The translations under genes were made by a program, and so were the position numbers. A stretch of 64,000 nucleotides of DNA from contig NZ_JAOEFD010000007.1 in NCBI RefSeq assembly GCF_025420485.1, positions 1-64,000 of the forward strand, written 5' to 3'. The DNA is from Nesterenkonia marinintestina (GTDB lineage: Bacteria; Actinomycetota; Actinomycetes; Actinomycetales; Micrococcaceae). Every line of letters begins with the position of its first letter. The first letter of the stretch is position 1. This document shows, one piece after another, positions 56,693 to 62,730 of this stretch. The notes under the pieces were generated by a model that worked only from the letters and a program-made list of their open reading frames with translations, was not told where the DNA came from and ran no database searches.

Positions 56693-58414
56693 ATGGATGG
56701 CATCAACTCCCTCGTGCTCGCCGTCATCGGCGTCGCGATGATGGCGGCAGGCTACTTCCTCTACTCGAAGTTCCTGTCCAAGAAGGTCTACAGGCTCAAC
56801 GTCGACTTCCGCACTCCGAGCCACGAGTTCAACGACGGCGTCGACTTCGTGCCCACCAACAAGTACGTCCTCTGGGGGCACCACTTCACCTCAGTGGCCG
56901 GCGCCGCGCCGATCATCGGTCCGGCCGTGGCCGTGATCTGGGGATGGCTGCCGGCGTTCATCTGGGTCGTCTTCGGCACGGTCTTCCTGGCCGGCATGCA
57001 CGACCTGGGCGCCCTGTGGGCCTCCGCCCGCAACAAGGGCCAGTCCATCGGCACCCTGTCCGGGCGCTACATCGGCGCTCGGGGCCGCAACCTCTTCCTC
57101 GCAGTGATCTTCCTGCTGCTGCTCATGGTGGTCGCCGCCTTCGCCGTGGTGATCTCCGGACTGCTCGTCGCCCAGCCCGGCGCCGTGATCCCCACCTGGG
57201 GCGCGCTGATCGTCGCCGTCTGCGTCGGCCAGGCGATCTACCGGTTCCGGATGAACCTCATGGTCGTCTCCCTGGTCGGTGTGGCCGCGCTCTACGCGCT
57301 CATCGTGATCGGTGACCGATACCCGATCGAGCTGCCCGACCCGGTCCTGGGGATGAACCCGCAGGGATTCTGGATCGTGCTGCTGTTCGTCTACGCGGCC
57401 GTCGCCTCGATCCTGCCCGTCTGGGTGCTGCTGCAGCCGCGCGACTACATCAACGGCATCCAGCTGTTCATCGGTCTGGGGATCCTCTACGGCTCGGTCA
57501 TGATCGCCACCCCCACCGTGGTGGCGCCGGCCTGGAACGAGAACGTCCCCGCCGACACCCCGTCGATCGTGCCGCTGCTGTTCGTCACCGTGGCCTGCGG
57601 GGCGATCTCCGGAGCCCACGGGGTCATCGCCTCCGGCACCACCTCCAAGCAGCTCGACCGGGAGTCCGACGCCCGGTTCGTCGGCTACTTCGGCGCCGTC
57701 GGCGAGGGCCTGCTCGCCCTGGGCGCCATCCTGGCCACCACCGCCGGGTTCCAGTCGCTGCAGGACTGGGAGGCTGTCTACGACTCGTTCTCCTCCGGCG
57801 GCGTGCCGGTCTTCGTCGAGGGCGGCGGGGCGATCATGAACGCCGGCCTGGGCATCCCGGCCGGACTTTCGGCCACCATCCTCGCGACCATGGCCGTGCT
57901 CTTCGCCGCGACGACCATGGACACCTGCATGCGTCTGAAGCGGTTCGTCATCCAGGAGATCGGCCAGCTGGCCGGCATCCGGCTGGGAACTGTGGTCTCC
58001 ACCCTGCTGGCCACCGGCCTCGGACTGGCGCTGACCTTCTCCCAGGGCGGCGACGGCTCCGGCGGTCTGCTGATCTGGCCGCTGTTCGGCACCACCAACC
58101 AGCTGATGGCGGCGCTGACCCTGGTCATCCTCACCATCATGCTGATGCGCAAGGGACGGCCGTTCCTGCCGGTGCTCATCCCCGGACTGTTCGTCCTGGT
58201 GATGAGCGCCTGGGCCGCGTTCGTCCAGCTGGGCACCTTCTTCCGTGACGGCGAGTGGCTGCTGCTCTCCATCGACGTCGCGATCATCGTCGCCGCCGCC
58301 TGGGTGCTGGTGGAGGCGGTCATCGCGATGAGCCGGGCCCGCCACCTGCCGAGGGAGCCCGAGGACGAGGAGGCCCTCACCGAGGCGGAGAAGCTGCCGA
58401 GCCGGGAGCGCTGA
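56693..58414 (+). CDS. CstA family carbon starvation / pyruvate transporter, copy 1
   Basis: 573 residues with about 14 to 16 hydrophobic helices. CstA signatures include FLSKKVYRLNVDFRTPSHEF, NKYVLWGHHFTSVAGAAPII, VFGTVFLAGMHDLGALWASA and the C-terminal FGTTNQLMAALTLVILTIML. In E. coli CstA and BtsT import pyruvate or peptides on starvation. The ATG has AAGGGG 7 bases upstream. It is nearly a copy of the gene at 58634, roughly four in five residues by eye. It has its own promoter and terminator hairpin. The role in this genus is inferred. Confidence 0.9.
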   Translation: MDGINSLVLAVIGVAMMAAGYFLYSKFLSKKVYRLNVDFRTPSHEFNDGVDFVPTNKYVLWGHHFTSVAGAAPIIGPAVAVIWGWLPAFIWVVFGTVFLAGMHDLGALWASARNKGQSIGTLSGRYIGARGRNLFLAVIFLLLLMVVAAFAVVISGLLVAQPGAVIPTWGALIVAVCVGQAIYRFRMNLMVVSLVGVAALYALIVIGDRYPIELPDPVLGMNPQGFWIVLLFVYAAVASILPVWVLLQPRDYINGIQLFIGLGILYGSVMIATPTVVAPAWNENVPADTPSIVPLLFVTVACGAISGAHGVIASGTTSKQLDRESDARFVGYFGAVGEGLLALGAILATTAGFQSLQDWEAVYDSFSSGGVPVFVEGGGAIMNAGLGIPAGLSATILATMAVLFAATTMDTCMRLKRFVIQEIGQLAGIRLGTVVSTLLATGLGLALTFSQGGDGSGGLLIWPLFGTTNQLMAALTLVILTIMLMRKGRPFLPVLIPGLFVLVMSAWAAFVQLGTFFRDGEWLLLSIDVAIIVAAAWVLVEAVIAMSRARHLPREPEDEEALTEAEKLPSRER

Positions 58415-58460
58415 GCACGATAGCACCCGATCAGCGGCGCTGAGCCCGCGAACCCACCCC

Positions 58461-58492
58461 CTGCGGCGGCCGTGATCCGACGGCCGCCGCAG
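58461..58492 (+). terminator. hairpin after cstA copy 1
   Basis: CTGCGGCGGCCGT and ACGGCCGCCGCAG form a 13-bp perfect stem with loop GATCCG, 46 bases past the stop codon. It separates the two cstA transcripts. Confidence 0.7.
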
Positions 58493-58517
58493 GCGGCATG
58501 CTCACCCCTCGACGCGG

Positions 58518-58523
58518 TACGAT
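58518..58523 (+). promoter_or_regulatory. -10 box (TACGAT) of the second cstA promoter
   Basis: TACGAT lies 110 bases before the ATG, in the same context (CGGTAC.ATGA) as the first cstA promoter. Confidence 0.45.
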
Positions 58524-58536
58524 GACGACGATCACA
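58521..58536 (+). promoter_or_regulatory. Crp/GlxR-like site at the second cstA promoter
   Basis: GATGA-N6-TCACA, a good right half and a weaker left half. TCACAC starts 14 bases after the start of the -10 box, exactly as at the first promoter. Confidence 0.4.
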
Positions 58537-58633
58537 CATATCGCACCGGACAGCGCCCTCCGTTCGGTCGCCGGGGAACGGCCGACGCTCTGAGGAGGAC
58601 GGCGTGTCCGTCCGTCTCAGAGGGAGAGTCACT

Positions 58634-60355
58634 ATGGACGGCGTCAACTCACTGGTGCTGGCCGTCATCGGCGTGACGATGATGCTGGCCGGCTACTTCC
58701 TGTACTCGAAGTTCCTGTCCAAGAAGGTCTACAAGCTCAACGCCGAGTTCCGCACCCCCAGCCACGAGTTCGACGACGGCGTCGACTTCGTCCCCACCAA
58801 CAAGTACATCCTCTGGGGACACCACTTCACCTCCGTGGCCGGCGCGGCTCCCATCGTGGGACCCGCGGTCGCAGTCATCTGGGGATGGCTGCCGGCCTTC
58901 CTGTGGGTCGTCTTCGGCACGATCTTCCTGGCCGGCATGCACGACCTCGGGGCCCTGTGGGCCTCCACCCGCAACAAGGGGCAGTCCATCGGCACCCTGT
59001 CCGGCCGCTACATCGGCGCCCGCGGCAGGAACCTGTTCCTGGTGGTCATCTTCCTGCTGCTGCTCATGGTGGTCGCCGCCTTCGCCGTGGTGATCTCCGG
59101 ACTGCTCGTCGCCCAGCCCGGCGCCGTCATCCCCACCTGGGGCGCACTCGTCGTGGCCCTGCTGGTGGGACAGGCGATCTACCGCTTCCGGATGAACCTG
59201 GCCCTGGTGTCCGTCGTCGGCGTCGTGGCCCTCTACGGACTCATCCTGCTGGGCGACCGCTTCCCCGTCGAGCTGCCGGACCAGGTCATGGGATTGGCCC
59301 CCGAGGGCGTCTGGATCGTGCTGCTGTTCGTCTATGCCGCGATCGCCTCAGTCCTCCCGGTGTGGGTCCTGCTGCAGCCGCGCGACTACATCAACGGCAT
59401 CCAGCTGTTCATCGGTCTGGGGATCCTCTACGGCTCGGTCCTGATCGCGACGCCGACGCTCGTCGCCCCCGCCTGGAACGAGAACGTCCCCGCCGACACC
59501 CCGTCGATCGTGCCGCTGCTGTTCGTCACCATCGCCTGCGGGGCGATCTCCGGGTTCCACGGCACCGTGGCATCGGGCACCTCGTCCAAGCAGATCGACC
59601 GGGAGACCGACGCCCGGTTCGTCGGCTACTTCGGCGCCGTCGGCGAGGGCCTGCTCGCCCTGGGCGCCATCATCGCGACGACGGCCGGGTTCCAGTCGCT
59701 GCAGGACTGGGAGTCGGTCTACGAGTCCTTCTCCTCCGGCGGCGTGCCGGTCTTCGTCGAGGGCGGCGGGGCGATCATGAACGCCGGTCTGGGGATCCCC
59801 GAGGGCCTCTCGGCCACCATCCTCGCCACCATGGCCGTGCTCTTCGCCGCGACGACCATGGACACCGGGGTCCGCCTGAAGCGGTTCGTGGTGCAGGAGA
59901 TCGGTCAGCTGGCCGGCATCCGGCTGAACACCGTGGTGGCCACGATCGTCACCGTCGGCATCGCCCTGGCGCTGACCTTCTCGCAGGGCGGGGACGGCTC
60001 CGGCGGCATGCTCATCTGGCCGCTGTTCGGCACCACCAACCAGCTGCTGGCCGCGCTGACGCTGATGATCGTGACGATCATGCTGATGCGCAAGGGACGG
60101 CCGTTCCTGCCGGTGCTGATCCCGGCGCTGTTCGTCCTGATCGTGAGCGCCTGGGCCGCCTTCGTGCAGCTGGGCACCTTCTACGCCGACGGCGAGTGGC
60201 TGCTGCTGGGCATCGACGTCGTCATCATCATCGCCGCCGCCTGGGTCCTGGTGGAGTCGGCCATCGCCATGGGTCGGGTCGCCAAGGAGCCCAAGGAGCC
60301 CGAGGACGACGAGCTGCTGACCGAGGCCGAGAAGCTGCCGAGCCGGGAGCGCTGA
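58634..60355 (+). CDS. CstA family carbon starvation / pyruvate transporter, copy 2
   Basis: 573 residues, the same length as copy 1 and strongly similar throughout, including the identical end TEAEKLPSRER. Differences cluster in two places: a helix near residue 190 and the last transmembrane helices. This suggests recent duplication with some divergence, or gene conversion. ATG 58634 has GGGAG 8 bases upstream; the frame from 58604 is longer but lacks the conserved MDGVNSLVLAVIGV start. The small Cys-Cys gene starts 4 bases after its stop. Confidence 0.9.
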   Translation: MDGVNSLVLAVIGVTMMLAGYFLYSKFLSKKVYKLNAEFRTPSHEFDDGVDFVPTNKYILWGHHFTSVAGAAPIVGPAVAVIWGWLPAFLWVVFGTIFLAGMHDLGALWASTRNKGQSIGTLSGRYIGARGRNLFLVVIFLLLLMVVAAFAVVISGLLVAQPGAVIPTWGALVVALLVGQAIYRFRMNLALVSVVGVVALYGLILLGDRFPVELPDQVMGLAPEGVWIVLLFVYAAIASVLPVWVLLQPRDYINGIQLFIGLGILYGSVLIATPTLVAPAWNENVPADTPSIVPLLFVTIACGAISGFHGTVASGTSSKQIDRETDARFVGYFGAVGEGLLALGAIIATTAGFQSLQDWESVYESFSSGGVPVFVEGGGAIMNAGLGIPEGLSATILATMAVLFAATTMDTGVRLKRFVVQEIGQLAGIRLNTVVATIVTVGIALALTFSQGGDGSGGMLIWPLFGTTNQLLAALTLMIVTIMLMRKGRPFLPVLIPALFVLIVSAWAAFVQLGTFYADGEWLLLGIDVVIIIAAAWVLVESAIAMGRVAKEPKEPEDDELLTEAEKLPSRER

Positions 60356-60359
60356 GCCG

Positions 60360-60641
60360 ATGGCCGCGTCAGGGCTGGCCCGCCTCCGGGACGGGCTGCG
60401 CGGGCTCTCCCGCGGGCTCGAGGAGTTCTACGTCGCGCCGTACCGTCGGACGATGGCCCGCGCCCGACGCGACGAGGAGGACCTGTTCATGATGCTGGTC
60501 CTCTCCGAGGCGCTGGGCATCCCCAACCCGGCCTCGGGGGCGACCCTGGAGCTGCTGCCCGAGATGCTCGACCGCATGCACGACTGGCACATCCGCCAGG
60601 GGATGAAGGATCTGCCCATCGAAGGACTCTCATGCTGCTGA
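60360..60641 (+). CDS. small protein ending in Cys-Cys (cory-CC-star-like)
   Basis: 93 residues, soluble, basic and helical. The features are [20 protein letters not shown], a charged segment, [15 protein letters not shown] and a C-terminus ending LSCC directly before the stop. I recall an actinobacterial family named cory-CC-star with this plan, length and gene context; the name is from memory. A terminal Cys pair suggests metal binding or thiol chemistry. It sits where enterobacterial cstA has its small partner YbdD. It is 4 bases after cstA copy 2 and overlaps the ATPase gene by 10 bases. Confidence 0.75.
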
Positions 60642-61615
60642 ACGCACTGAGCCGCTCGGTCCAGGTCCTGTTCCTGGGCGGCAAGGGCGGGGTCGGCAAG
60701 ACCTCCACCGCCTCGGCCGTGGCCCTGCACCGTGCACGCGCCGGCGGCCGGGTCCTGCTGGTCTCCACGGACCCGGCCCACAACATCGGGCACCTGTGGG
60801 AGCGGGAGATCGGCGACGACGTCGTCACCCTGTTCCGGGACGCCGACGGGGACGGCGCGTCTGCCGGGCGGCTCGACGCCGTCGAGGTGGACCCGCGCCG
60901 CACGGTGCGCGCCCATGTGCGGGAGGTCGGCCAGACGCTGCGGTCGATGATGCCCGAGCATCTGCACCGACAGGTCGACGAGCATCTGCGCATGGCCGAG
61001 GATTCGCCGGGCACGCATGAGTCGGCGCTGCTGGAGCGGATCGCCGAGCTGGTGGAGCAGTCCCTGGACGACTACGACCTCATCGTGTTCGACACCGCGC
61101 CCTCGGGCCACACCGCCCGGCTGATGGCGCTGCCCGAGACGATGACCGTGTGGACCGAGGGGCTGCTCGCGCGGCGGGACCGGGCCGAACGGTTCGGCGC
61201 CGCAGTGCGTGCGCTGGACCGCGACGACGACCCGGCGACCCAGCGCGACCGTCGGATCCGAGCGGTGCTCACCCGGCGTCGCACCCGCTTCGAACAGCTG
61301 CGCGACGTCCTGCGCGACGAGCGGCGGTGCGCCTTCGTCGTCGTGCTCACTCCGGAGCGGCTGCCGGTGCTGGAGTCGGCGGAGCTGGTCACCGACCTGC
61401 AGGGCAGCGGAGTCCGCGTGGGCGGGCTGGTGGTCAACCGGCTGTCCCCCGACGACGCCGGGGAGTACCTGGCCCGTCGTCGGGAGCAGGAGCTGCGGCA
61501 TGTGGAGTCGCTGCGTGAGCTCCTGCCGGAGATGGAGGTGCAGACCGTGCCGCTGCTCCCGGGCGACGTGGTGGGCGCAGACGCCGTAGGACGCCTCGCC
61601 GACCTCTACGCCTGA
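60632..61615 (+). CDS. ArsA/Get3-like P-loop ATPase
   Basis: 327 residues. The deviant Walker A is [18 protein letters not shown], switch I is [13 protein letters not shown] and switch II is [19 protein letters not shown], all as in ArsA/Get3. The metal-binding Cys pair of Get3 and the second ATPase half of ArsA are absent; a single Cys is visible. Get3 targets tail-anchored membrane proteins and ArsA drives arsenite efflux. No arsenic genes are nearby, so a role with CstA and the Cys-Cys protein is more likely. It overlaps the small gene by 10 bases. Confidence 0.88.
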
Positions 61616-61824: not shown

Positions 61825-62730
61825 TCAGTCGGCGACGGCGTCGCGCGAGCCGTAGTCACCGTCGAGCACGCGGCGCAGCACCGGCACGAGGCCGTCGTCG
61901 TCGACGTGGTCGGTCTGCTCGTCGGCCGCCCGCACGACCTCCTCCGGCGCCTGGCCCATCGCCACGCCGCGGCCGGCCCAGACGAGCATCTCGATGTCGT
62001 TGCGCCCGTCCCCTGCGGCGACCACGTCGGTGATCGGCACCCCGAGGCGCTCGCGCAGCGCCTCGAGGGAGGATCCCTTCGTCACTCCCGCCGCTGCGAC
62101 GTCGAGCCAGGCCGACCATCCGACCGAGTAGGTCACGCCCTGCAGACCGATGCCCCCGACGGCCTCGGCGAACTCCTCGCTGGTCGCGGTGTGCGAGTTG
62201 ACCACCAGCCGCACCGCCTCCACCTGGGTGAGCTCCTGGAAGGTGACCCCCTCGGCCATCAGGCCGAAGGACATGTCCTGGAACCGTTCGGTGGAGAGGA
62301 ACCCGCCGTCGGCGGTCTCCACCGCGTAGCGGGCGTTGGGCAGGCGGTCGGCGAGCGCCTCCAGGGCCGGGGCGGGGTCGAAGACGTGGCGGGAGATGAC
62401 CTCGTAGCCGTCGGGCAGCGAGGCGTCGATGCGTACGGTCACCCCTCCGTTGGAGCAGACCGCGTACCCCTGGGTCACGCCCAGGGCCTCGACCACCGGG
62501 AGCACCGCGGGCAGCGAGCGCCCGGTGGACACGACCACCGTGTGCCCGTCCGCGACGACCTCACGACCCGTCCTGCGCACGGCGTCGGACATGTGACCGT
62601 CGTGGTCGACCAGGGTGCCGTCGACGTCGAGGCAGACCATGGCCCGACCACGACGATGGACGTGGCTGCCCCCGTCGCCCGCGGCGGGCACGGAGATCCG
62701 GCCGGTCTGGTTCGTGTCCGTGGTGGTCAT
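61825..62730 (-). CDS. HAD superfamily IIB (Cof-type) hydrolase
   Basis: 301 residues. HAD motif I is MVCLDVDGTLVDHDG (about 31-45), motif II is VVVSTGRSL, and motifs III/IV are GVTKGSSLEALRERLG and VVAAGDGRNDIEML. The middle cap domain is of the IIB type. It is probably a phosphatase for sugar phosphates or riboflavin-like compounds; substrate not known. The N-terminal 25 residues are an extension, and no ribosome binding site is visible before ATG 62730, so the start is uncertain. Confidence 0.85.
   Translation of the reverse strand: MTTTDTNQTGRISVPAAGDGGSHVHRRGRAMVCLDVDGTLVDHDGHMSDAVRRTGREVVADGHTVVVSTGRSLPAVLPVVEALGVTQGYAVCSNGGVTVRIDASLPDGYEVISRHVFDPAPALEALADRLPNARYAVETADGGFLSTERFQDMSFGLMAEGVTFQELTQVEAVRLVVNSHTATSEEFAEAVGGIGLQGVTYSVGWSAWLDVAAAGVTKGSSLEALRERLGVPITDVVAAGDGRNDIEMLVWAGRGVAMGQAPEEVVRAADEQTDHVDDDGLVPVLRRVLDGDYGSRDAVAD

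Follow-up and report, generated by a model that had tools for sequence, protein, structure and literature searches.

What does an ATPase of the ArsA/Get3 family do directly behind a CstA transporter? CstA-family transporters import pyruvate or peptides under starvation. In the window analysed here, a stretch of 64,000 nucleotides from the genome of Nesterenkonia marinintestina, two cstA genes in tandem are followed by the gene of a small protein that ends in Cys-Cys and by the gene of such an ATPase (Table 1). The small protein belongs to NF041419, the cory-CC-star family, which is seen well beyond Corynebacterium, and we refer to it as CC-star. The layout described in the original prediction was confirmed: the CC-star gene starts 4 bases past the CstA-2 stop codon and shares 10 bases with the ATPase gene. 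Because the ATG of the ATPase sits within A-TGC-TGC-TGA, that is, inside the Cys-Cys-stop codons of CC-star, translational coupling of the two genes is suggested. In both CstA proteins, the PF02554 match covers both parts of the Pfam profile. Neither a sigma-70-like promoter nor an intrinsic terminator was found in the spacer between the cstA genes. Past the ATPase gene, a HAD-hydrolase gene occupies positions 61825-62730.

Table 1. Features of the cstA locus, in positions of the window.
Feature	Position	Strand	Description
CstA-1	56693-58414	+	573 aa from ATG; tandem paralogue; Pfam CstA (PF02554) 422 bits, gathering cut-off 27
Spacer between both cstA genes	58415-58633		219 bp
CstA-2	58634-60355	+	573 aa from ATG; adjoins CC-star gene; PF02554 446 bits, cut-off 27
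cory-CC-star protein	60360-60641	+	93 aa; NF041419 113.5 bits, cut-off 80; CstX position of Castillo & Saier
H74-x-W76-H77 codons (CC-star)	60579-60590	+	HxxH in 95/95, HxWH in 93/95 distinct homologues
Terminal Cys92-Cys93 codons (CC-star)	60633-60638	+	Overlap ATPase start codon; Cys-Cys end in 95/95 distinct homologues
ArsA/Get3-family single-domain ATPase	60632-61615	+	327 aa; TIGR00345 (GET3_arsA_TRC40) 205.9 bits, cut-off 135
ATPase deviant Walker A (P-loop) GGKGGVGKT	60677-60703	+	Residues 16-24
ATPase DTAPSGHT (DTAP) motif	61091-61114	+	Residues 154-161; motif named in the available text of PMC2963123

The association has a published precedent. According to the available text of Castillo & Saier 2010 (PMC2963123), 26 CstA-ArsA associations were recognised, 24 of them with a protein of ~90 aa, CstX, which never occurred without CstA; the CstA, CstX and ArsA trees were largely congruent, and CstX was proposed to couple CstA to ArsA. 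The window locus is an instance of this cluster, known since 2010: as far as that text describes the CstA-CstX(-CstY)-ArsA clusters, they share with it the gene set and the logic of gene order, a single-domain ArsA homologue of ~330 aa and the lack of arsenic genes. The window CC-star agrees with the published CstX in position, size and exclusivity. The original prediction had regarded the module as not described, a view that is overturned by these published operons and by the existing name of the small-protein family. A search of the available literature for CstA with ArsA, or for later work on the trio, returned nothing relevant besides PMC2963123. The CstA trio is real, conserved and known in outline. 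New here are the pattern of joint loss of CC-star and the ATPase, the Cys-Cys/HxxH signature, a Cys-Cys tail on CstA itself and an additional protein carrying SGCCGRLG; none of these, nor the retention of CstA after the loss of the pair, nor tandem cstA genes, is described in the available text of that paper.

How widely does the trio occur? A scan of named genomes recovered 80 CC-star loci, from Rubrobacter, Streptomyces, Corynebacterium, Isoptericola, Microbacterium, Salinisphaera and Nitrococcus as well as from a Bacillaceae MAG, a cyanobacterium and a Gemmatimonadetes MAG. CstA, CC-star and the ArsA homologue were encoded together on one strand at 77 of these 80 loci. Of the three exceptions, one begins at a contig end (L120), one lacks the ATPase in both the locus and the genome bin (L062), and one has no adjacent cstA but encodes CstA elsewhere in the genome (L074). 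The trio was also complete in 12/12 loci of an order sample and in 15/16 CC-star loci of a further set, whose remaining locus is truncated by the edge of its contig; some species recur between the locus sets, and these counts are not additive. In a sample of 246 genomes of the phylum, CstA was found in 64 genomes overall and in all 22 with a genuine CC-star; a weak genome match to CC-star in G240 was rejected as a MinD-like ORF. The arrangement is far beyond chance, and the tie of the ATPase and the small protein to CstA that the original prediction had drawn is borne out by an operon order conserved in several phyla. It is most improbable that the pair has a function of its own and merely travels along with CstA: the pair does lie apart from cstA in some genomes, and L074 has no adjacent cstA, but every CC-star genome checked, that of L074 included, has CstA, and the order of the operon is conserved across phyla. 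At L074 (2230-5867), the CC-star and ATPase genes lie a few genes from the ORF of a sodium-dependent (NSS-like) transporter, whose family was assigned by eye. A search of a viral collection yielded no relatives.

A deeper form of the cluster was also found. At L049-L052, CstA is accompanied by one or two small proteins and by two different ArsA-like ATPases in tandem; a profile comparison (90.6%) indicates homology to the CC-star cluster, and the small proteins have neither the Cys-Cys end nor HxxH. In a tree of 133 CstA proteins, the CC-star-linked, YbdD-linked, solo and deep-type members fall in separate clades.

The two CstA proteins of the window had been called nearly identical; they are of equal length, but the wording was too strong, because 494 of 573 residues (86.2%) are identical. 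They are sister copies, and a relative (G311) has a single CstA at its locus. A tandem of cstA genes is also present in G359 (L235), with copies from two different branches of the genus tree, so that tandem cstA arose at least twice, in that case independently of the window duplication. CstA-1 carries F308A and V312I, whereas every other examined member of the CC-star-linked clade keeps F308 and V312. Both changes adjoin the conserved H309 and hint that transport by CstA-1 may be altered. The window proteins score 199 and 218 bits against NF011590, the equivalog of the E. coli type of CstA, below its cut-off of 1188, and a PDB sequence search with CstA gave no match.

Is the ATPase a component of an arsenite pump, or a Get3? 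It belongs to the same P-loop family as ArsA and Get3 and has the same motifs, and its P-loop and DTAP motifs are conserved across 101 linked homologues; it differs, however, in being of a single domain and in lacking the arsenic-site cysteines and the CxxC motif. Against TIGR04291, the model of the ArsA arsenical pump ATPase, it scores 131.6 bits, compared with a cut-off of 650. First, no cysteine is conserved among the 101 homologues. Second, its sequence AGEYLARR aligns to CDFCRARR/CEFCNARR of the archaeal proteins 3ug6/3zq6, and CxxC is absent. Third, the segment that the alignment places at the Met-rich client groove of Get3 is Arg/Asp-rich. We deduced from these three features that the ATPase is probably not an arsenite ATPase, and not a canonical Get3 either. 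The surroundings contain no arsenic genes, as the original prediction had noted: no ars genes were seen near the ATPase, the ORF listing of 50-64 kb of the window holds no obvious arsenic gene, and a search of the source genome for an ArsD gene found none.

The genus of the window provided a view of how the genes are kept and lost. CstA was found in 20 of its 21 genomes. CC-star and the ATPase occurred jointly: 16 genomes have both, 5 have neither, and none has just one of them; three of the pair-less genomes (G369, G371 and G374) are at least 97% complete. The pair lies away from cstA in G370, G376 and G377, the ATPase alone does so in G360 and G378, and G362 and G368 have second copies of CstA that the pair does not accompany. 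This joint presence and absence, together with the retention of CstA, indicates that the pair is a unit that depends on CstA, and not the reverse. At L245, L246 and L250, where the pair is unlinked or lost, the HAD-hydrolase gene that in the window lies past the ATPase gene comes closely after cstA, and the pair is thus missing from the syntenic site. The unlinked pairs (L255-L257, in G370, G376 and G377) are beside DoxX-like and amidohydrolase-like genes, neighbours that also follow a solo second CstA at L238.

The absence of the pair from genomes that keep CstA speaks against an assembly factor that is essential and would favour a conditional modulator. The original prediction had proposed that the ATPase and the small protein target or assemble CstA, and the idea of a Get3-like ATPase, aided by the small protein in the insertion or assembly of CstA, would agree with the membership in the GET3/ArsA/TRC40 family and with the tight genetic link. 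However, the aligned region of the ATPase has neither CxxC nor a Met-rich client-binding segment, CstA, being polytopic, is no client of the tail-anchored kind, and CstA not only persists after the loss of the pair but also occurs as second copies without it. The intact CstA of near-complete pair-less congeners and the lack of Get3 hallmarks weaken the notion of an essential service, and we consider targeting or assembly quite improbable. ATP-driven transport, in which the ATPase would energise CstA as ArsA does ArsB and the small protein would be the coupling linker (Castillo & Saier 2010), we regard as unlikely. The motifs of the ATPase are complete, the small protein is encoded between the other two, and the co-clustering and tree congruence reported in the available text of PMC2963123 are consistent with it, but near-complete genomes of the same genus keep CstA without the pair, E. 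coli CstA and BtsT (annotated as a pyruvate transporter and a pyruvate:H+ symporter) move pyruvate without an ArsA partner, and the cysteines with which ArsA takes part in As(III) transport are missing from the ATPase.

How, then, might the pair act on CstA? We propose that CC-star joins the ArsA-like ATPase in a single accessory unit, dispensable and devoted to CstA, in which CC-star is the adaptor. The body of CC-star would engage the ATPase, for which a dimer of the SIMIBI type is predicted, and the flexible Cys-Cys tail of CC-star, with HxxH, would act on CstA through a thiol or a metal; the ATP cycle would set when this tail is presented or withdrawn. The unit would not build CstA but, under some conditions, activate, stabilise or switch it. 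We infer the physical contacts, the direction of the effect, the thiol or metal chemistry and the ATP-driven presentation, and we hold this proposal with about as much belief as doubt.

The candidate active site is invariant: Cys-Cys forms the C-terminal end, and HxxH lies 17-20 residues upstream of it, in every distinct CC-star protein (95/95). A metal or thiol role of the terminal pair, as suggested in the original prediction, appears strengthened by this conservation and by the Cys-Cys tail on the CstA of a pair-less lineage (see below). A fold search with the CC-star model, which has two predicted helices, gave no meaningful match. Because the deep homologues lack both Cys-Cys and HxxH, the thiol site would not be needed for the core role of the adaptor.

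The small protein occupies the place of YbdD, as had been predicted, although the Cys-Cys end of YbdD itself had been missed. The E. coli loci CstA-YbdD and BtsT-YjiX-YjiA resemble the CC-star locus in that behind a CstA-family transporter comes a small protein with a Cys-Cys end, as both YbdD and YjiX have it; the third gene of btsT-yjiX-yjiA, in contrast, encodes a P-loop GTPase annotated YjiA, not an ArsA. The position beside cstA and the Cys-Cys end that the window protein has in common with the YbdD/Sel_put family (PF04328) are shared traits, not homology: the protein has no Pfam match to PF04328, and homology of CC-star to YbdD/YjiX was rejected at an hhalign probability of 5.5%, with only the terminal residues aligned. 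A GTPase beside YbdD is not a general rule, as none was seen within short flanks at actinobacterial YbdD-type loci. The deletion of YbdD reduces pyruvate uptake in E. coli to about 20% (PMC5847655), and DUF466 proteins end in Cys-Sec in some Epsilonproteobacteria, for which redox activity has been suggested (PMC4607533). At L135, L136, L139, L140, L143, L144 and L152, the YbdD-type protein ends in Arg-Cys-Pro, not Arg-Cys-Cys; the final cysteine is thus not universal in PF04328.

We observed a Cys-Cys end on the transporter itself in a lineage without the pair. The CstA of G371 (L247:3382-5145) ends in DPFDDVSSCC and that of its sister G375 (L251:4732-5601) in DPFDDVNSCC. We count the two tails as one evolutionary event; the G375 genome is 62% complete, and its assembly interrupts the CstA frame. 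Such a tail is found in only these 2 of the 178 CstA frames surveyed and, across 30 genomes of the whole genus, only in these two; among 527 coding-like ORFs longer than 200 aa in these neighbourhoods, the CstA of G371 is the only one that has it. Fusion of the 3′ end of the CC-star gene onto cstA gained no support as its origin, the similarity beyond Cys-Cys being no better than in shuffled sequences. The pair-less G369 and G374 have CstA without the tail, and these proteins, the single event behind the tails, their lack of significant similarity to the CC-star tail beyond Cys-Cys and the Cys-Pro ends of some actinobacterial YbdD proteins count against the adaptor proposal.

A fourth component was identified in some lineages. 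A protein of ~130 aa with invariant SGCCGRLG and DPRN is encoded between cstA and CC-star in Rubrobacter, Salinisphaera and others (L053:6568-6993, L054-L056, L059-L072 and others) and is absent from the window. It also occurs beside cstA without CC-star (L166:5716-6144 and L175:4305-4718), and two members of the CC-star-linked CstA clade have it in the absence of CC-star. It matches no Pfam or NCBIfam family. The structure model predicts a thioredoxin-like topology (mean pLDDT 81, with the Cys loop below 50), the Foldseek matches of the model to thioredoxin, ArsD (3mwh/3kgk) and a SelW-like protein are weak, and so is the relation to ArsD in hhalign (probability 38%, E 3e-4).

This protein bears on another reading, the delivery of a metal cofactor, in which CC-star (His2Cys2) would serve a CstA metal site formed by H63/H64, C302 and H309 as a metallochaperone or metal subunit; the ATPase, joined in some lineages by the SGCCGRLG protein, would load it. 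The invariant HxxH and Cys-Cys of CC-star, the presence in the operon of a protein with a predicted thioredoxin-like fold and ArsD among its weak matches, and the conservation of C302 and H309 in all CstA groups would fit such a role. We nevertheless judge it distinctly unlikely, in that the ATPase has no conserved cysteine, the similarity of the SGCCGRLG protein to ArsD is weak, the deep homologues lack the site, and the conserved CstA residues show no link to the presence of partners: C302, H309 and H63/H64 were rejected as such markers, being common to groups with and without partners.

More tentatively, and as a possibility that we rate below the adaptor proposal, a C-terminal Cys-Cys peptide may be a portable effector of CstA, supplied in trans by the unrelated YbdD or by an ATPase-controlled CC-star, and in cis as a CstA tail after the loss of the pair, with the SGCCGRLG protein as a redox or metal partner. 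The occurrence of the Cys-Cys end on two unrelated partners and on the transporter of one lineage provides a specific pair of residues to mutate. The joint loss of the ATPase and its adaptor likewise points to a clean deletion of two genes. With both, a bioinformatic proposal that is now sixteen years old becomes directly testable.
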